Shown here one piece after another: positions 17,121-56,337 of a DNA stretch of 64,000 bases. Below the pieces are notes generated by a model. It had not been told where the DNA came from. It made no database searches and was given only the letters and a program-made list of their open reading frames with translations. The stretch comes from Slackia sp. ZJ119. GTDB taxonomy: Bacteria; Actinomycetota; Coriobacteriia; Coriobacteriales; Eggerthellaceae. Location of the stretch: the NCBI RefSeq assembly GCF_011039175.1, contig NZ_JAAKEN010000001.1, positions 310,001-374,000 on the forward strand. Direction: 5' to 3'. The position numbers and the translations under genes are program-made. Position 1 is the stretch's first letter, and each line of letters starts with the position of its first letter.

Positions 17121-20100
17121 ATGTCGAAGCCGATTCTTTCGAAGAAGACCTACCGGGGAGGGGGCAGGGTTCTCAGCCTGATCCTTTCAGGCACCCTCGC
17201 CTTCGGCACGGTCCCGGCGGTCGCCCTGTCTCAGGCGGCCCTGGACGCGACTTTCGCGTATGCGGCGGCACCGCCGAGCACGGACGGCACCCTTAACGGC
17301 TGGACGGCCGGCAACGTCGCCTCCAACCTCGGCGTCGCCTCTCCCGACGACTGGAGCTCCGGAAGCACCAAGTACATGTACAACGGCAAGGCCCACGGGT
17401 TCGACCTGGCCAACCTCGACGTGACCGCCACGGTCGCGGAGGGTTCAGGGTCGCTCGACTGGGCCGGCTTCCCTCCCGCTCCCGCCGACAGCTACGTCGC
17501 CGAGCTCGGCGCCGACTGCTACGCCGTCGTCTCTTTGAAGCACACGTCGCCCGATGGGTACGAGACCGACCTGACGGGCGGCATCTCGTCCTACCTGAGC
17601 TCCGGCGCGCTCAGGCTGACCAACGCCGGCACCTACGAGGTTGGCATCGGCGTCGCGGGCACCGCCAACGCGCCCAGCCTCGACGAGGTTGCCACCACGA
17701 TCATCACCATCCCCCCCTTCGACATCTCGAAGTTGTCCCGTCACAACGTCTCGGCCCAAAACCAGCTCGCCAGCCGCTTCCCGCCCAATCCGACCGCTGC
17801 CGACGTGCTGAATCCCGTCGTGAAGCTGCAGAACAGAACGACGCTCGAGAAGGACGTCGACTACGAGGTCGTCGATCTGCGGCCTGGCCTTCCGTCGGGA
17901 GGCGTAACCCAGTGGTCCTTTATCGTCGAGGGCATGGGCAACTGCAAGGGCAGAAATGATCAAGGCGCCTTCAATGTGTGCGACAAGGACATCGCCGACG
18001 CGACGGTCGCCCTGGCCGCTCCGGACGATCCGATCTTCTACGACGGCATGGGAAAGATTCCCGACGTCACTGTCAACGCGCCGCTGGTTGAGGGCGGCGG
18101 GCTTCTGTCCGCGGGCGGTGACTACAGAATCTCCTACAGGAACTACGTCAAGGCCGGCACGGCAACGGTCGACATCATCGGCGCAGGCCAGTATGCAGGT
18201 GAGACGAGCATCGGTTTCAATATCCAGCCGCTGCAGCTTGACGGCGCCTCCCCCGACGGCGTCACGCTCAACGGGGCGGACGGCCTGGTCTACACCGGCA
18301 AGCCCCTCAAGCCTCTGGTGGCGTGGGACCGCAGCGATGTGACCCCGACCAACAACGGCTACACGGGCGGGGCGATCAATCTCGGCCGGTACAGCGGCGA
18401 CCTGACCTGCACGTACGAGGGCAACGTGGACGCCACCACGGGCGGGCGGAAGGCCTACGCGGTGATATCCGGCAAGACGGGCAACTTCGCGGGCGAGCTG
18501 AGGGTCCCGTTCGACATCGAGCAGGCGGAGCTGACGGGCGGCAACGTGTCCGTCGCGAGATCCGTGACTCCCGGCACCTCCGCCGCCGACGCGGTGAAGG
18601 TCACGTTCGGCGAGAGGACGCTCGTCGCCGGCACCGACTACGCTGTCTCGACCTCGGGCATCGTTCCCGGCACCGTGACCGCCACCGTCACCGGCACCGG
18701 CACCGGCAACTTCAAGGGCACGGTCCAGAAGTCGGAGGAGGTCTGCTACGACATCGCCCAGGCCGACGTCACGGTCAAGCCCGTTGTCTACAACGGAAGC
18801 GCCCAAACGTCCGAGGTCGAGGTCAGCTACATGAACGGCAGCGACAAGGTCGTCGTGCCCTCGAGCGCCTACGACGTGACGGGTGCGGGCGCGGCCGACG
18901 CCACGAACGCCGGAACCTACCCGGTGACGGTGACGGGCAAGGAGAACGAGGGCTGGACCGGCTCGGCAAGCTGCAACTTCGTCGTCAACCCGGCGACGGT
19001 CTCCGCCGAGCCGCAGGTCTCATACGACGCGGCCGGCCTGCCGGTCGTGACGGTGCCCGGCCTCGTGGAGGGCGTCGACTTCACGGTCGCGGCCGACCCG
19101 GCGACCAAGACCATCACCGTGACCTACAAGGGCAACTACACGGGCACGGCCACGGTCGGCTACAAGCCCGCGCCCGCGCCCGCGCCCGCGCCCACGCCCG
19201 CGCCCGCGCCTGCGCCCGGCGTGCCCGGCGGCCCAGGCGGTTCCGGCGGGTCCGGAGGCTCTGGCGGACCAGGCGGCTCCGGCGGTTCGGGAGGCTCCGG
19301 CGGGTCCGGCGACACCGATACACCTGGCGGCTCTGGCGGATCGGGGGGCTCGGGAGGATCCGACGGCTCGGGCGGTTCCGGCGGGTCCGATACATCCAAC
19401 GGCTCGGGAGGCTCCGGCGGCACCGGCGGCACCGATGTGCCTGGTCAGCCCGGCGGCGGGTCCGGCGGGTCCGGCGGCTCCGGCGGCTCCGGCGACATCG
19501 ATGGGCCTGGCGAGCCCGACGGTCCGGATGAGCCTGGCGGGTCCGATACGTCCGGCGGCTCTGGGAATCCTGACGTGCCCGGCGGTTCGGGAGGCTCCGA
19601 CGGCTCCGGCGGTTCGGGCGAGTCCGGGGATCCCGATGTGCCTGGCGGTGGCTCGGGCGGCACCGACGTGCCCGGCCAGCCCGGCGGTTCTGGCGGCTCC
19701 GGCGGATCGGATGGATCTGGCGGCTCCGGCGACACCGATGGGCCTGGCGAGCCCGGCGGTCCGGATGAGCCCGGCGGGTCCGATACGCCCGACGGCTCTG
19801 GGGATCCTGACGTGCCTGGCGGTTCCGGCGGGTCTGGCGGCTCCGGCGGCACCGACGTGCCCGGCCAGCCTGGTGGCTCAGGCGGCTCGGGCGGCTCCGG
19901 CGGTTCTGGCGGCTCCGGCGGGTCCGGTCAGCCTGGTGGCTCAGGCGGCTCGGGCGGCTCCGGCGTGCCTGGGGAGTCCGGCGGCTCCGGCGAATCCGGC
20001 GCCTCCGGCGAGTCAGTCGTCCCGCCCGCCCCGCCAACGGGCGGCGGCTGGTCCGGCTCCGGCGAGAACTGGGCCTACTACGAGAACGGCGAGCCCGTCA

Positions 20101-20591
20101 AGGGCGGTTGGAGGTTCATCGGCGGCGAATGGTACCACTTCGAGGAAAACGGCAGGATGACCGACCCGCAGTGGTTCCAGGATGTCGACGGCAGATGGTA
20201 CCTGCTCAACCAGTCCCAGAAGGGCTCCTACGGGGCGATGCTCTCCGGATGGCAGTTCGTTGACGGCGAGTGGTACTACCTGAACGAGAAGCACGACGGC
20301 TACTTTGGCGCCATGCTTTACGGCTGGCAGAAGGTGGACGGCGATTGGTACTACCTCAACACGAAACACGACGGCACGTTCGGCAAGATGCTGTCCGGCT
20401 GGGCCAAGGTCAAGGGCGAGTGGTACCTGCTGAACACGAAGCACGACGGCACGTTCGGCCGCATGCTCACCGGTTGGCAGAAGGCCGGCGGCAAGTGGTA
20501 CTGGATGGACAAATCCGGCGCCATGGCCTCGAACGCCTGGGTCGGCCCCTGCTGGGTGAACGCCTCCGGCGTGTGGACGGCAACCCGCTAG
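17121..20591 (+). CDS. Large secreted surface protein with MBG-like repeats, Gly/Ser stalk and C-terminal cell-wall-binding repeats
   Basis: The 1156-residue product starts with a signal peptide (about residues 1-45). Residues ~60-690 form several beta-rich repeats with the words YNG/YTGK, YKGNYTGTATVGY and GTAT..VTGTGTGNF that resemble MBG/immunoglobulin-like adhesin domains. Then come an Ala-Pro stretch (~683-700), a Gly/Ser/Pro/Asp stalk of roughly 265 residues, and a C-terminal ~180 residues with five or six GW..VDGEWYYLN-type repeats of the choline/glucan-binding family. These probably hold the protein non-covalently on the cell wall; no LPXTG motif is present. ATG 17121 is preceded by AGAAAGG. 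A paralogue lies at 49.6 kb. The ligand is unknown. Confidence 0.9.
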   Translation: MSKPILSKKTYRGGGRVLSLILSGTLAFGTVPAVALSQAALDATFAYAAAPPSTDGTLNGWTAGNVASNLGVASPDDWSSGSTKYMYNGKAHGFDLANLDVTATVAEGSGSLDWAGFPPAPADSYVAELGADCYAVVSLKHTSPDGYETDLTGGISSYLSSGALRLTNAGTYEVGIGVAGTANAPSLDEVATTIITIPPFDISKLSRHNVSAQNQLASRFPPNPTAADVLNPVVKLQNRTTLEKDVDYEVVDLRPGLPSGGVTQWSFIVEGMGNCKGRNDQGAFNVCDKDIADATVALAAPDDPIFYDGMGKIPDVTVNAPLVEGGGLLSAGGDYRISYRNYVKAGTATVDIIGAGQYAGETSIGFNIQPLQLDGASPDGVTLNGADGLVYTGKPLKPLVAWDRSDVTPTNNGYTGGAINLGRYSGDLTCTYEGNVDATTGGRKAYAVISGKTGNFAGELRVPFDIEQAELTGGNVSVARSVTPGTSAADAVKVTFGERTLVAGTDYAVSTSGIVPGTVTATVTGTGTGNFKGTVQKSEEVCYDIAQADVTVKPVVYNGSAQTSEVEVSYMNGSDKVVVPSSAYDVTGAGAADATNAGTYPVTVTGKENEGWTGSASCNFVVNPATVSAEPQVSYDAAGLPVVTVPGLVEGVDFTVAADPATKTITVTYKGNYTGTATVGYKPAPAPAPAPTPAPAPAPGVPGGPGGSGGSGGSGGPGGSGGSGGSGGSGDTDTPGGSGGSGGSGGSDGSGGSGGSDTSNGSGGSGGTGGTDVPGQPGGGSGGSGGSGGSGDIDGPGEPDGPDEPGGSDTSGGSGNPDVPGGSGGSDGSGGSGESGDPDVPGGGSGGTDVPGQPGGSGGSGGSDGSGGSGDTDGPGEPGGPDEPGGSDTPDGSGDPDVPGGSGGSGGSGGTDVPGQPGGSGGSGGSGGSGGSGGSGQPGGSGGSGGSGVPGESGGSGESGASGESVVPPAPPTGGGWSGSGENWAYYENGEPVKGGWRFIGGEWYHFEENGRMTDPQWFQDVDGRWYLLNQSQKGSYGAMLSGWQFVDGEWYYLNEKHDGYFGAMLYGWQKVDGDWYYLNTKHDGTFGKMLSGWAKVKGEWYLLNTKHDGTFGRMLTGWQKAGGKWYWMDKSGAMASNAWVGPCWVNASGVWTATR

Positions 20592-49230: not shown

Positions 49231-49494
49231 GAGCATGTCTTTGGCCGGTGAAGCGTGGGAGACGTTGTCCTGGGGCCATCGGACGACGTCCGGGGCCGTG
49301 GGACGGCGCTTCCGCCGCGACGGCTTCGCCTCGACGCGTCGTCGCGCCGAGCCAAGGTCTCGGCGCTCCTTTGGCTTGACCTCGGCTGCGCCGTCGCGGC
49401 GAAACCGCCTGCCGAAGGGTGGAGCATTCGCGCTGGCGCGGGCGCCTGACGCGGGGTGACATTCTCGCCGGCGGGGCGGCCGCGGCGGCGGGGG

Positions 49495-49588
49495 TTGTGG
49501 AGAAAGCGTAAAGATGGGGTGCTGCCTCGGTTGCGTCTGTGATTATGGCAGATGTATTGCATTATGAACCCACTAAGAAAGGTCTGAT
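49495..49588 (+). promoter_or_regulatory. 5' region shared by the two large surface-protein genes (second copy)
   Basis: Aligns with 17029-17120 (TAAAGATG, TGTATTGCAT, AGAAAGGT before ATGTCGAAG). TGATTATGG occupies the place of the TATAAC candidate -10. Bases 49237-49494 hold no supported gene. Confidence 0.5.
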
Positions 49589-52500
49589 ATGTCGAAGATC
49601 ACTCTTTCGAAAACGACCTACCGGGGGGGGGCAAGGTTCTTAGCCTGATCCTCGCCGGCACCCTCGCGCTCGGCATGACCCCGGCGGCCGCCCTGTCCCA
49701 GGCTGCGCTGGAGGCGGCTCCCGCCTACGCGGCCGAGGCGGAATCGGTTGCGATCTCGAAAAGCATGACGGCGGCCGCGTTCGATGCGGCCTTCCCTACA
49801 GGCTCTACAGCCGTAGGCAAGACTTGCGCATGGGAGGTCGCTGTCTCCACTGCCGCCCTCGAAGACGCGCTTGCCGAGAAGCCGTTGGTCTACAACGGGA
49901 AGTCCCAGGCTCCCGGCACCGCCGGCGTGACGATCAGCGGCACGTACAAGTATTACGCCGATGATGGAGCGGCCGAGGCGACGGAGGTCCCCTTCACCGT
50001 GGACCAGGCGCTCGTCGATGTCGCGTATGAAAAGAACAATGTTTCGAAACCTGCCGACGAAGTCGTCGGCGCCGGCGACGACTACGAGGCGGCCTACACG
50101 GTGAGCACGACGGCGAACGCTGAACTCGCCTCCAAGGTCGTCCCGATCAACACTGCGATCGGCTCAGCCAACACTCTTGGCTTCAGCATCGCGAAAGCCC
50201 AGATCAGGCCTTCGAACATCGGCGTTCCCACCGGCTATATGGGAGGCAGCATGCCGGAGACCCTGCTTTATGACACCACGGCGAAGATCGACCTGGGCGG
50301 CAACACGGTGGTGGACCTGTACGAAGAGCCCGCGACCGATGATAACATCCTGGACATTGAGTACTTCGAGGATCTGCTAATGGAGGACGGGTATTTCATC
50401 GAACCCGGCACGATCAACGTCCACGTCAAGTTGAACGGCCGCAATGCCGACAGCGGGAACTACGAGCTGGTCGACTACGAGGGAGCGGTTCAAACCACCC
50501 TCGCTTTGACCGCCGACATCGTGGTCCCTCCGGCGTGCCAGGGCGCGTTCAAAACAGACGGTCGCTATGTCGACTCCAGCGACGGCCTGTCCGGGACGAT
50601 TCCGTGGGACGCGGACCTGGAAAGTCTTGATGACGATATCTGGAAAAGCATTCTCGTCACCGTTCCCGGCGACGACACGCACACGACGATTGAGTACTGC
50701 TGGACGCAGACGTACTTCTACGCGGCCGACGGCAAGCCCGTGGTGAACGAGGACGGCGAGGCCACGACGCCGTTCAAGCCTGGCGAGTACAAGGTCGACG
50801 TCGCCATGGACGGCGCGGCGGAGCCCTTCGCGACGCTCGGCCTGACCGTCGTCGGCAAGCTCTCGGACACTCGCAGCGACATCGTCGCGGAATACAACGG
50901 CACAACAATTGACAACGGCGACGGCCCCGACGTCAAGCTCGCCTGGAAGGCCGGCCTGACGGACGCCGAGCGCGAGGCCGACGTCCTCGAGCAGCTGCAG
51001 GCCGGCTTCAAGGCGTATCTGAAGAAGGACGGAGGCGCGAAAGGCGACGTGGAGGTCGACGCCGCCAAGGACCTGAAGTTCGCCGTGAGCGTCCCGGCCA
51101 ACGACCCGAGGGCCCAAGGCCAGATCACCGTCTCCGGCTCGGGCAACGGCGTGTACGCCGGCACCCAGGCCGTCAACTTCAAGTACGGGGATGACCTGCC
51201 CGCCGGCTTCGGCCTGAAGAAGGCGAGCGAGCCCTACGCCGGCTCCAACACAGCGAACAGTGATCCGGCGAAGAAGGACGGCTACAAGGTCTCCGACCTG
51301 CTGGCTGTCCCGCAGGTGCCCGACCCTGACGGCGTTCCAGGCGCGACGAAAGCCTTCGACGGCTACACCGTGTCGGTTTCGTACGTCGACGCAAAGGGCG
51401 AGACCGTGCAGGTCGGAACCGACTCCGACGACGATGCGGACGCTTACCTCACCGAGGCGGCCGCGTACGACATCGTGGTCAAGGGAACGGACCCCTACGT
51501 CGGCACCGTGTCGCTGAAGTTCGCCATCGCGCCGCTCGAGATGGCCGTCGACGCCAACGTGTCCTGGGACGGCAACACCAGCAACGTGAGCCTGGACGGG
51601 GCAACCGAGACGTGGCACACCGCCTTCACCGGCGCCGCGCTCGAGCCCGTCCCGGCCATAAAGGCCGCGTTCAACTCGGGGGACTTCTCCGGCTTCAAGC
51701 GCAAGCCGGCCGACCCGGGGAAGGACGAGGCCTGGGACTACGACATCGCGTGGGAGAACAACGTGAACGTCGGCACCGCCAAGGCCGTCCTGACGTTCGC
51801 GGGCAACTACTCCGGCACCGTCGAGATCCCGTTCGACATCACGCCGGCCGCTCTGACCAGCACCAACGCCGCCGTCTCCGCCGACAACTGGGTCGCCGCC
51901 GACTTCAACAAGGGCGACGAGGCCCTCAACGGGGCGGACGTGCTGAACCCTAAGGTCTCCTACACGGATCTCGCCGGCAAGACGATCGAGCTCGTCGAGG
52001 GCAAGGACTACGCCGTCGGCGAGGTGGCCAAGGGCGCCACGAGCGGCGGCGCGACCGCCTACACCTTCGAGGTCAAGGGCATCGGCAACTACTCCGGCAC
52101 CGCCAAGGGCCGGTTCGTGGCGACCGACCAGGACGTCAGAGAGCTGTGGACGGCCGAGGTCGACAAGGGCGGCCACGTCTACAGGATGGGCCAGGAGGTC
52201 AAGGCCGACGTGGCCGTCAAGGCCCGGCAGGGCGGCACGGCCGTCGAGGAAGAGGGCAACTACAAGCTGGTCTACGAGAACGACGCCAACGCCGGCACCG
52301 CCACGGTGAGGGTCGTGGGCATCGGCGACTACGCCGGCGCCATCGAGCTGGCCTACGAGATCGCCCCGCTGGAGATCTCGCAGGAGTCCGCGGCCGACAT
52401 CAAGACGACCGCCCCGGCCGCGGGCTACGCGTTCGAGCCCGGCAAGGCGTTCGAGCCCGAAGTGGCCTGGAACGCCTCGTGCATCACGCCGAACAACTGC

Positions 52501-53913
52501 GCGGACCCCATCCCGCTGAACCAGCTCGTCAACGACCTGGCCGTCACCTACGCCGACAACGACAAGGCCGGCACCGCCCAGCTGATCGTCTCCGGCAAGG
52601 AGAACGGCAACGTCACCGGCTCCTACGCGGTCGACTTCGCCATCAACCCGGCCGACATCTCCAAGGCGACCGTCGAGGCCGCGGCCGCGGCGCCGGGCAC
52701 CCCTGCGCCCGACGCCGTGAAGGTCACGTTCGGCGAGGCCGAGCTCGTCGCCGGCACCGACTACGAGGCGGCCGTCGAGGGCGCCGCCCCCGGCAAGGTG
52801 GCCGTGACCGTCACCGGCGCGGGCAACTACGCCGGCGAGGTCGAGAAGGACGTCGAGGTCCTCTACGACCTCGCCCAGGCCGACGTCGCGGTCGAGCCTT
52901 CGGTCTACGACGGAAGCGCTCAGACGCCGAAGGTCGAGGTCAGCTACGCGGCCGGCGGCGAGAAGGTCGTCGTCGACCCGGGCGCCTACGGCGTGTCGGT
53001 CGAAGGCGAGGCCACCGACGCCGGCGCCTACCGGGTGACGGTCGCGGGCAGCGAGGACGCCGGCTGGACGGGCGAGAAGCAGGCCGACTTCGTGATCGAG
53101 CCGGCCGCCGGCCCCGAGACCGCCGAGGTCACCTACACCGCCGCCGGCGCCTACAAGGTGACGGTGCCGGGCCTGACCGAGGGCGTCGACTTCACGGTCG
53201 CGGCGAACCCCGCCCAGGGCAAGCTCGTGATCACCTACAAGGGCAACTACGCCGGCACGGCCACCGTGGACTACGTGCCCGCGCCCGCGCCCGATCCCGC
53301 GCCCGCGCCCACGCCCACGCCCGATCCCGCGCCCACGCCTGATCCTGCGCCTACGCCCGATCCTGCGCCCGCGCCCGCGCCCGCCCCGGCCAAGGACGGC
53401 TGGGTCGGCTCCGGCAACGACTGGACCTACTACGAGAACGGCAAGCAGGTCAAGGGCGGCTGGAAGCTCATCGGCGGCGCCTGGTACCACTTCGAGGCGA
53501 ACGGCCAGATGACGAACACCCAGTGGTTCCAGGACGCCGACGGCACGTGGTACCTCCTGAACCAGTCCCACAAGGGCTCCTACGGCGCCATGCTCACCGG
53601 CTGGCAGAAGGTGGGCAAGGACTGGTACTACCTGAACAAGTCCGGCGCCATGCAGTCCGGCTGGTTGAAGGACGGCGGCGAGTGGTACTACCTCAACGCC
53701 AAGCACGACGGCTCCTTCGGCCGCATGCTCACCGGCTGGGCGAAGGTGGGCAAGGACTGGTACTACCTGGACGCCTCGGGCGCCATGCTCACCGGCTGGC
53801 AGCTCGTCGGCGGCAAGTGGTACTACCTTGACGCCTCCGGCGCCATGGCCGCAAGCGAGTGGGTCGGCCCCTACTGGGTCAACGCCTCCGGCGTGTGGAC
53901 GGCCACCCGCTAG
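49589..53913 (+). CDS. Large secreted surface protein, MBG-like repeats and cell-wall-binding repeats; out of frame at a G9 tract
   Basis: A paralogue of the protein at 17.1 kb. The normal start (ATG 49589, MSKITLSKTTYRG) runs into a run of nine G and stops at the TGA at 49646-49648. With ten G the frame would continue through LSLILAGTLALGMTPAAALS into the long open frame ending at 53913, giving about 1440 residues. The open frame has many beta-rich repeats (YNGK, YAGSN, YKGNYAGTATVDY), a linker of Pro-Ala-Asp repeats and about seven GW..VG..WYYLN wall-binding repeats. An internal ATG at 49675 would lack the signal peptide. This is either a phase-off gene or a sequencing indel. Confidence 0.85.
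49623..49631 (+). repeat. Poly-G tract (nine G) in the signal-peptide region
   Basis: Nine consecutive G. The paralogue at 17.1 kb has an interrupted tract (GGGGAGGGGG) that is one base longer overall and in frame. Such tracts change length by slipped-strand pairing. Confidence 0.8.
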
Positions 53914-53951
53914 GCTGCGGCTAGCTCTCCCTTTGCAGGCCGTCAGATGAA

Positions 53952-53986
53952 AGAAGGCCCCTTCCCTTGCCTGGGAGGGGCCTTCT
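53952..53986. terminator. Hairpin after the second surface-protein gene
   Basis: AGAAGGCCCCTTCCC and GGGAGGGGCCTTCT form a long stem with one bulge. The plus strand lacks a T-run; the minus strand ends in CTTCTTTCATCT. It may work in both directions. Confidence 0.55.
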
Positions 53987-54085
53987 GGAAAGCCGGATGT
54001 TGTTCGACTTCGGCCTTGGACGGCCTGCAGGGGCGCTTGCTCGCCCGCTGACAAGCAAGCGCCCTGTGGGCCGTTATCGGTCCAC

Positions 54086-54376: not shown

Positions 54377-54426
54377 CTATCTACTATAACAGAAGCCGCT
54401 TTTTCAGCTGTGGGTATTTTCTGGTC

Positions 54427-54635
54427 CCTCGGGAAACACTGGTCAATTCCGCCGGCCCTGCGTCTGCAGGGCGGCGCCTGGCAGTCTCAGGCCTCGTTCG
54501 TGCATGCCAGTGCGCTCGCTCGGCCTTCGGCCGCCACCCGTCCACCCTGCAGACCCAGGCTAAGACGGCCTTGATCAGCGTTCCCCTCGGGAAACACTGA
54601 CCGATTCCGCCAGCCCTGCGTCTGCAGGGCAGCAC
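54427..54635. repeat. Dispersed intergenic palindrome family member (double unit)
   Basis: A ~48-base block (CCTCGGGAAACACTG...CCCTGCGTCTGCAGGGC) occurs at 54427 and again at 54587. Between them, from 54558, is the family arm AAGACGGCCTTGATCAGCG. The GCCCTGCGTCTGCAGGGC word is a self-complementary hairpin. Confidence 0.65.
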
Positions 54636-54658
54636 CGCGCCGCCTCTTCTTGAAAAGC

Positions 54659-54759: not shown

Positions 54760-56172
54760 CTACTGGCGCTTGCCGGACATGGTCTGCTCGACGATCGAGT
54801 GCATCATGTCGGACGTGAGTGCGCCCGCTGCCTGGCCGAACACGTTGCCGTCCTTGTCGATCATGACGGTCGTCGGGAACGATTCGATGCGATAGGCGTC
54901 GAACAGCGATCCGTCGAAGTCCATGATGACGGGGTAGGTGACGCCGTTTTTCATGAGGAAGGTCTTCAGCTCGGCGGACGATCCGTCATAGGCGTCGGCG
55001 TTCTGGTCGTTGGGGTTCGCCACGCCCAGCACTGCCAGCTCGCCTTCGTTCTTGCCGAACTCCTTGTACAAGGCTTCGATGTCGGGCAGCTCGGCGATGC
55101 ACGGGCCGCACCACGTGGCGAAGAAGTTCAAGAAGATCGTCTTGCCTTTGAGCTGGTCAAACGTCATTTCGCCGCCGTTCGCCAGCGGGAATGTCACGTC
55201 CGCGAGCGGGGCTTTCGGCAGGGTTTTCTTCGCCTCCGCGCCGCCGTCTGCACTCTGGCCGCTCTCGCCGTCCGCTGCGCCTTCGCCGCCTGCTGCGCCG
55301 CTTTCGTCCGTCGCGCCGCCCTCGCCGTCGCCCGCGTTCTCTTCGGCCTTCTGCTCCTGGTCGGCGCCTTGCTGCGTTGCGGTTTCGCTTTGGCCCTCTT
55401 CGGTCGTCGCGGCCTGCTCCTGCGCTGCCGGGCTGCCGCTGCCGATGGACGAGAAGAAGTTCGACACGCCGTTCATCCAGCCGGTCAGGGTGAGCAGGCC
55501 CATGACGATCAGCAGGGCGCCGCCGACCTTCACCGTGTATTTCACGACCGACCCGTGCGTGCGGAAAAAGCGCAGAACCTCGCCCGTGAACAGGCCCACT
55601 GCCAAAAACGGCAGCACGAACCCGAGCGTATAGACGCCCACGAGCAAAAAGCCCTCGACGGCCGTTGCGGACGAGCCGGCCATGAGCAGCACGCTCGTCA
55701 GCACCGGCCCGATGCACGGCGTCCACGCGAAGCTGAACGTGAAGCCCAGCGCAAGCGCAATGAGCGGGTTCATCGCGAACTTGTTGAGGTTGAACGGCAG
55801 GCGATGCTCCGTTTCGATGGCGCGCGACGTGCCGAACGCGCCGAGCATGTACAGGCCGAACGCCATCATGATGATGCCTGATATGACAGAAAACACGTTT
55901 TGATAGTCGTGGAAGAACTGCCCCAGGGCGGTGAATCCGGCTCCCAGCAGGAAAAACGCGAAACTGACGCCCACGACGAAGCACAGGGTGTTGACGAACA
56001 CCGTGCCGCGCGGGTAGTCGATGGTGCCGTCGTCGCGCGTTTTGGCGGCCCCGCCGGCCAGGTATCCGATGTAGAGCGGCAAAAGCGGCAGCACGCAGGG
56101 CGAGAAGAAGCTCAAAAGCCCCTGCACGAACACGGTGATGGCGGAGATGCTCTCTCCGAGGGAAAAGCCCAT
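54760..56172 (-). CDS. CcdA-TlpA fusion (membrane thiol reductant carrier with thioredoxin domain)
   Basis: The 470-residue protein joins a CcdA/DsbD-type membrane domain (about 1-235) to a TlpA/ResA-like thioredoxin domain (about 335-470, WCGPC active site). The membrane domain has redox cysteines in FFSPCVLPLLPLY and FAWTPCIGPVL. The two are linked by an acidic, Gln/Glu/Gly-rich spacer of about 85 residues. It would carry electrons from cytoplasmic thioredoxin across the membrane to reduce disulfides outside, for example in cytochrome c maturation or protein repair. The ATG at 56172 follows AAAGGACG. The direct fusion removes the need for a separate partner. Confidence 0.92.
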   Translation of the reverse strand: MGFSLGESISAITVFVQGLLSFFSPCVLPLLPLYIGYLAGGAAKTRDDGTIDYPRGTVFVNTLCFVVGVSFAFFLLGAGFTALGQFFHDYQNVFSVISGIIMMAFGLYMLGAFGTSRAIETEHRLPFNLNKFAMNPLIALALGFTFSFAWTPCIGPVLTSVLLMAGSSATAVEGFLLVGVYTLGFVLPFLAVGLFTGEVLRFFRTHGSVVKYTVKVGGALLIVMGLLTLTGWMNGVSNFFSSIGSGSPAAQEQAATTEEGQSETATQQGADQEQKAEENAGDGEGGATDESGAAGGEGAADGESGQSADGGAEAKKTLPKAPLADVTFPLANGGEMTFDQLKGKTIFLNFFATWCGPCIAELPDIEALYKEFGKNEGELAVLGVANPNDQNADAYDGSSAELKTFLMKNGVTYPVIMDFDGSLFDAYRIESFPTTVMIDKDGNVFGQAAGALTSDMMHSIVEQTMSGKRQ

Positions 56173-56337
56173 GGGTCGTCCTTTCAAGAGGCGGGGCCGG
56201 CAGCGCCAAGCCGACGTCTGGTGAATCGATGTCCGCAAGTGTAAAAGCGCTTCGCGGGCGTGGCAACGACGATGAAGCCGCGCTACGGAAACGACAGACC
56301 TCTACACCGCAGGGATCAGAAGGGGCGCGAAGCCGCA

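Follow-up and report, generated by a model that had tools for sequence, protein, structure and literature searches.

The gene that starts at position 49589 of the window (the whole 64,000-nucleotide stretch analysed) very probably belongs to a phase-variable, Opa-like repertoire of surface proteins, with a slipped-strand poly-G switch at each locus and exchange of passengers among loci. Under this explanation, a poly-G tract in codons 12-15 of a secreted protein would gain or lose G residues by slipped-strand mispairing at replication. Cells with the tract in frame would translate a signal peptide and a wall-bound passenger of 1,400 residues, and cells with the tract out of frame would end translation after 19 residues. 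With 14 members in the genome of the window, 11 of which carry their own tract, a population could show many combinations of surface proteins. Recombination would add a second, slower layer, in which the leader (upstream region, tract and signal peptide) stays in place. The passenger, which has conserved signal-peptide and wall-repeat sequence on its two sides, would move between loci, including those whose leaders are tract-free and always in frame. We infer slippage in living cells, expression, a promoter and display at the cell surface, as well as selection by host or phage.

The elements of the window locus and of its paralogue are as follows.

49576-49582, plus strand: probable ribosome-binding site AGAAAGG, read from the sequence; the motif occurs in 25/26 family leaders
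49589-49622, plus strand: ATG and opening portion of the leader, with MSKITLSKTTYR from ATG 49589
49623-49631, plus strand: poly-G tract of 9 G, the proposed switch; 9-13 G occur at this place in 21/26 members
49646-49648, plus strand: TGA closing the short frame in the current state, with the short peptide MSKITLSKTTYRGGARFLA before the stop
49633-49731, plus strand: signal peptide h- and c-regions, KVLSLILAGTLALGMTPAAALSQAALEAAPAYA, in the passenger frame; recognised by eye, with 21 invariant columns among 12 members
49630-53913, plus strand: passenger frame of 1,427 codons and a stop, the start of which reads GKVLSLILAGTLALGMTPAAALSQAALEAAPAYA
49735-51732, plus strand: N-terminal part of the passenger, within the variable region, modelled as small, beta-rich (Ig-like) domains arranged in a row
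53395-53901, plus strand: C-terminal cell-wall repeats of the choline-binding type (PF19127, PF01473, PF19085)
about 49247-54060, no strand, approximate edges: whole-gene stretch without a counterpart at the collinear locus of a same-genus genome, G136
17121-20591, plus strand: paralogue in the window, in frame, with the interrupted tract GGGGAGGGGG at 17155-17164

This layout agrees with the earlier note, which had read MSKITLSKTTYR as followed by nine G that direct translation to the TGA. The note had also calculated that one more G would restore a signal peptide and join it to a frame of 1,412 codons. The ATG-initiated ORF in the passenger frame does span 1,412 codons (49675-53913), and the arithmetic was borne out by two paralogues, C24 and C7, which are in frame with a tract of different length; the 40 nt 5' of the tract are identical in these two and the window gene. 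The paralogue starting at ATG 17121 was likewise described correctly, with GGGGAGGGGG at the matching place, an intact frame and a corresponding signal peptide. At the syntenic locus of G136, the corresponding gene carries 10 G.

To define the family, we searched the 138 genomes of the taxonomic family with a profile of the signal peptide. Strong matches occurred in two of them, at 14 places in the genome of the window (G000) and at 12 places in G136, which is assembled as a single contig. Weak signal-peptide matches alone were found in 13 other genomes (best E 1.2e-6 to 9.3e-4); among genomes of the same genus, G135 had one weak signal-peptide match and G134 had zero matches to the signal-peptide profile. 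The scan for G runs at 19 weak-match loci covered one strand. Scans of a wider genome-contig collection, from which the genome of the window and near genomes may be absent, with A1 and A2 gave 221 and 68 pattern matches, respectively, and no confirmed relative, and a scan of viral contigs gave six pattern matches and again no confirmed relative. The signal-peptide profile A1 represents 12 of the 14 G000 members, without C15 and C36, and the coverage of all members was 12/26 for A2, 24/26 for A3 and 26/26 for the passenger tree, in which C24, C7, C4 and C35c are cut by contig ends. The one leader without the ribosome-binding motif is that of C35a, whose sequence begins 47 nt before the passenger, that is, 3' of the position of this site; its frame state was taken from its own ATG and its identity with C3.

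The members with a tract of 9-13 G at the common leader place comprise 11 of 14 loci in G000 (9 G at four, 10 G at seven) and 10 of 12 loci in G136 (9 G at two, 10 G at six, 11 G at one and 13 G at one). Of these 21 genes, 16 are out of frame and five are in frame, namely C24, C7, G136_1750, G136_1641 and G136_351, the last of which was read by hand, outside the motif script. This in-frame share is compatible with the one third expected of a free tract (probability of five or fewer, P = 0.25). The remaining five members are all in frame, and tract-free members encode the same residues by mixed codons. Four of the five represent two tract-free leader types, each present in both genomes (C15 with G136_627, and C36 with G136_476), and the fifth, without a tract of such length, is the window paralogue at 17121. 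Thus, many unlinked loci each carry a tract of their own and would presumably switch separately.

Because long G runs are not rare by composition in a GC-rich window, the case must stand on the place of the tract and its conservation. The window contained two overlapping matches of 8 G, compared with 3.86 +/- 2.52 in shuffles, indicating no excess. By a hand count from lists, G000 has 27 tracts of at least 9 G and G136 has 20, of which 11 and 10, respectively, are located at the leader place of the family. The longest G run in each of the 26 passengers (100,893 nt) was only 4-6, and GGG accounted for 184 of their 3,644 glycine codons (5%); G runs of the leader length therefore occur nowhere else in the family genes. 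A chance homopolymer is ruled out by this position at one family-specific place.

We then compared tract lengths among leaders of the same type. Of the 21 tract genes, 20 entered this comparison, the exception being G136_351, for which there is no partner with a tract. Tract length was unequal in 25 of 43 pairs, and the flanks differed at only 85 of 4,291 bases. Leader type 2 gave 10 pairs across two species, each identical over 100 flanking bases, and six of the 10 had unequal tracts. The tract lies within the 5' coding region, where its length sets the frame, and lengths vary in paralogues and between two species with hardly any change in the flanks, as at known contingency loci. The earlier note would have counted a tract that never varies against its reading; the lengths in fact differ on both levels. 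Its on/off contingency-locus reading gains support from the conserved place, from length variation between near-identical leaders, and from the intact frame behind the tract in copies that are out of frame; the pairs tested had dN/dS below 1. Tracts of paralogues are not independent of one another, and the near-identity of their leaders points to gene conversion or a recent common origin. In Cutibacterium acnes, most comparable G/C tract lengths follow clades, from which the authors infer slow change, as far as the accessible part of that paper goes (PMC4746626). By analogy, slow, clade-following change could apply to the poly-G family as well.

Homopolymers are error-prone and their length can be miscalled, and one might suppose that sequencing or assembly error hides a real tract that is in frame and a gene that is always on. 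We consider this highly improbable. It would require a mistake in every one of the 16 out-of-frame tracts, which measure 9, 10 or 13 G and come from two genomes assembled separately, while tracts of 10 G in the type 1 leaders of C24, C7 and G136_1750, and of 11 G in G136_1641, are in frame. In addition, contig ends of G000 share identical runs of 126 and 127 nt, pointing to a short-read k-mer assembly, which would usually be reliable for runs of 9-10. We also observed that G000 contigs break off within passengers and that these ends come in pairs, identical over 126-127 nt (L009, L010, L014 and L016), as if a k-mer assembly had been broken by shared repeats. Contigs C2, C9 and C35 start with the conserved leader.

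The window gene is a presence/absence locus. G136 is collinear here, with most aligned pieces 83-94% identical, and has 70 bases, between 380828 and 380899, in place of about 49247-54060. Two further features lie 3' of the gene: a pair of 63-nt direct repeats that are 84% alike (54426-54488 and 54584-54646), and an ORF on the minus strand (54760-56238) whose matches to models of DsbD-like and ResA-like thiol-disulfide oxidoreductases stay below the cut-off. A gene that is out of frame and missing from the corresponding locus of a relative could be an ordinary decaying pseudogene with a chance frameshift. This is scarcely credible, however, because its 1,427 codons are open with no further stop and the same state recurs in 16 genes, which together hold 21,410 open codons and show dN/dS below 1 in the pairs tested. 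In 14 of these genes the frame runs to a stop codon, and in two (C4 and C35c) to the contig end. We estimated dN/dS for nine hand-picked pairs by a simple counting method. The six pairs made up of two out-of-frame genes gave 0.54-0.71, and the remaining three gave 0.53-0.66. Constraint on the passengers (0.53-0.71) is therefore moderate, not strong. Together with the open codons, these values indicate that the off copies are not in decay. Gene conversion by copies that are in frame could be another way in which passengers are kept intact.

We next considered how out-of-frame genes might still yield protein. No ATG, GTG or TTG in the passenger frame was present 5' of the tract in 11 of the 16 out-of-frame genes, which rules out an alternative start before the tract as a general bypass. 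A possible alternative start exists in the other five (C16, C35b, C35c, G136_1625 and G136_1485), so some product is conceivable for those. Alternatively, RNA polymerase or the ribosome might slip at the G run, giving some full-length protein at any DNA length, with the tract tuning the amount. Runs of at least nine identical bases can promote such slippage, and the 16 out-of-frame tract genes are fully open, as this explanation would have it. However, both out-of-frame offsets occur among the members, so that no single programmed shift fits all, whereas general polymerase or ribosome slippage is compatible with the offsets. In-frame tract copies exist as well, and DNA length differs between near-identical leaders, which would be unneeded under programmed slippage. 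On balance we regard slippage during transcription or translation as quite unlikely and favor length change in the DNA itself, for which slipped-strand mispairing is an established route in homopolymer tracts. The same route is named for the tracts of Gardnerella in the accessible part of PMC11287997.

The stability of such tracts may also depend on mismatch repair, and we searched for repair genes by profile in the four genomes of the genus (G000, G134, G135 and G136) and in 14 control genomes. MutS1 had no match in any of the four. MutL matches in the four genomes reached 25-41 bits against a cut-off of 180, and none exceeded it. None of the four exceeded the cut-off of 24 for the C-terminal model of NucS; three gave 20-22 bits, in partial matches spanning 40-41 of the 124 model positions, and the fourth gave none. 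Among the controls, MutS1, MutL and NucS matched 11, 14 and 7 genomes, respectively, with 11, 11 and 7 over the cut-off. Loss of repair would be expected to make the tracts less stable.

To examine whether passengers move between loci, we paired loci of the two genomes by their flanks, using mechanical ORFs on both strands, overlapping ones included. C24, on a contig of 3,240 bases, was left out of this comparison; C9 and the window gene had no partner among the G136 flanks compared, and the locus of the latter is the collinear one described above. Eleven G000 loci were paired with G136 loci, with a mean identity of 81-91% on the main sides and support from both sides at five loci and from one side at six. 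The passenger cores at these syntenic pairs are only 36-77% identical. The syntenic partner was the best passenger match in four of the 11 pairs (C7, the paralogue at 17121, C4 and C15), and in the other seven the best match was elsewhere or tied: two G136 loci tie for C16, and a non-syntenic G136 locus is better by 2-36 points for C36, C35c, C2, C35b, C35a and C3.

The clearest case is C36, which has a tract-free leader. Its passenger is 74% identical to that of G136_2052, whose leader is of the poly-G type (9 G, out of frame), compared with 38% for the syntenic, tract-free G136_476. Between C36 and G136_476, DNA identity is 84-97% from -300 to +100, falls to 26-58% in the passenger from +100 to +3,400, and returns to 81-97% from +3,700 through the wall repeats and downstream, apart from one window at 67%. 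Between C36 and G136_2052, identity is 19-39% over the last 300 bases 5' of the passenger, 73-98% over most of +600 to +4,200 (three windows at 58-66%), and in the DNA behind the passenger 55% in one window and then 33-49%. As a separate observation, the segments about 300-600 bases 5' of the G136_2052 and C36 passengers (L083 and L096) are 61-76% identical despite otherwise unlike leaders and near flanks.

Mapped onto a tree of all 26 passenger cores, the seven types of leader require 11 changes, where the minimum is 6 and the mean of shuffles is 17.0; none of 200 shuffles gave an equally low number. Leader types are thus still clustered on the passenger tree, indicating that exchange is occasional. 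The passenger of the window gene is sister to that of C9, which has a different leader type (support 100/99), and a group of four that includes C36 and G136_2052 contains four leader types (support 86/88, under the program's star). Reassortment of leaders and passengers, as in Opa-type families, is therefore seen between the two species, and passenger cassettes seem, from these comparisons, to be traded between sites.

Such exchange raises the alternative that the out-of-frame members serve chiefly to store silent passengers for recombination into the tract-free, always-in-frame loci, the tract serving to keep the donors quiet. The closeness of the C36 passenger to an out-of-frame poly-G member and the retention of two tract-free leader types in both genomes are in its favor. 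We nevertheless think it rather unlikely, because a single exchange between a tract-free locus and a tract locus is clear, the passenger tree still shows clustering by leader type, and poly-G members can themselves be in frame. Somewhat less doubtful, and still tentative, is a two-layer form of the phase-variable repertoire, with 10-11 poly-G loci and, per genome, 2-3 loci that have no pure tract and are always in frame, passengers being exchanged between these two classes in a single bacterial genus. Here the tract-free loci would be expression sites fed by a phase-variable archive, and, with no MutS, MutL or NucS over the cut-off, no known mismatch-repair brake would act on slippage.

The structure model of the 49735-51732 product (24 rows, mean pLDDT 83.3, pTM 0.60) matched S-layer proteins, cadherins, invasin and other Ig-like chains in the PDB, none of them strongly. 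The best VIA match had Z 6.0 over 83 residues, none of the 985 VIA chains reached a Z of at least 8, and TM-scores were at most 0.22 in the best 50 of 1,073 Foldseek matches. These fold matches are generic for Ig-like chains and point to no function. The C-terminal repeats exceed the gathering score in PF19127 (98.8 bits, cut-off 27) and PF01473 (89.4 bits, cut-off 20.5), and their nearest solved relative is choline binding protein J (6jyx). The likeness to the choline-binding proteins of Streptococcus pneumoniae lies in these repeats (PF01473 and PF19127); N-terminal of about residue 1180 of the passenger, the structure search reported no solved relative. A wall-bound stalk or adhesin would be the natural interpretation.

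In the opa genes, the switching repeat lies in the signal-peptide region. Neisseria gonorrhoeae has 11-12 unlinked, intact opa genes with a slipped-strand pentamer repeat in the coding region and variable parts that recombine, according to the accessible parts of PMC5020929 and PMC5953494. The window family resembles this system in logic, with unlinked loci, a slipped-strand repeat inside each coding region and recombining variable parts; we do not claim homology. It differs in that the repeat is poly-G rather than a pentamer, that the products are wall-bound beta-rich chains of 1,400 residues rather than small outer-membrane proteins, and that it includes tract-free leaders. Closer in taxonomy, the accessible parts of papers on two Actinomycetota, C. 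acnes (PMC4746626) and Gardnerella (PMC11287997), report G/C tracts that lie within genes or ahead of them, in some cases genes of putative surface proteins, which is the likeness to the window family. However, 39 of the 54 variable tracts in C. acnes are intergenic, and those parts of the two papers do not describe a family of about 12 loci with a tract at one codon and exchanged passengers.

Tracts also occur at other places in these genomes. In another genus, 9 C stand just behind a different signal peptide of large secreted proteins at L043 (G003) and at L045 and L054 (G009); all three are out of frame, at least 488 codons being open in each up to the locus end, and L044, examined alongside them, has no C tract. 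In the same-genus G134, where we examined 14 tracts of at least 10 out of 43 of at least 9 G, three lie just after a signal peptide recognised by eye and are in frame (L106, L107 and L114). On the evidence of these few loci, switches at signal-peptide tracts may have more than one origin in the taxonomic family. Two other secreted proteins have 10 G after an apparent signal peptide, with 826 codons behind in another frame at L023:3799-3808 (G000:C12:379798-379807) and 707 codons behind in another frame at L121:380-389 (G136:C1:394379-394388). At L029:3144-3156 (G000:C39:10143-10155), 13 G separate a 466-codon frame from a 1,281-codon frame, the two being in different frames. At L022:2443-2455 (G000:C9:42442-42454), 13 G follow 181 open codons and precede 209 in another frame; the latter contains DPPYG, which we take to be a motif of DNA adenine methyltransferases, and the locus is possibly a phase-variable methyltransferase that is now out of frame. 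Adjoining runs of 15 G, 11 C and 26 C at L025:2213-2268 (G000:C34:142212-142267) resemble an artefact of the assembly or else an unusual palindromic tract.

Poly-G phase variation is already known and the switch is in itself ordinary; the unusual part is the combination of a fixed leader, a mobile passenger and tract-free loci. We did not find such a two-layer family in the literature on phase variation (Eggerthella, Slackia, Eggerthellaceae, Coriobacteriia and slipped-strand loci of the gut), in a search restricted to papers readable without subscription, and the accessible parts of PMC8778435 (prophage retroelements), PMC3711429 and PMC13060105 contain no description of the poly-G family.

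Phase-variable surface repertoires of the Opa kind have been best studied in Gram-negative pathogens. The family described here would represent a wall-anchored repertoire of the same logic in another genus, in which the switch is tied to the locus and the protein cassette is mobile. If this is true, clonal cultures would be mixtures of surface types, and a single reference genome would show most such genes as broken though they are not. Cells of one population may then differ from each other in their binding to host, food or phage.
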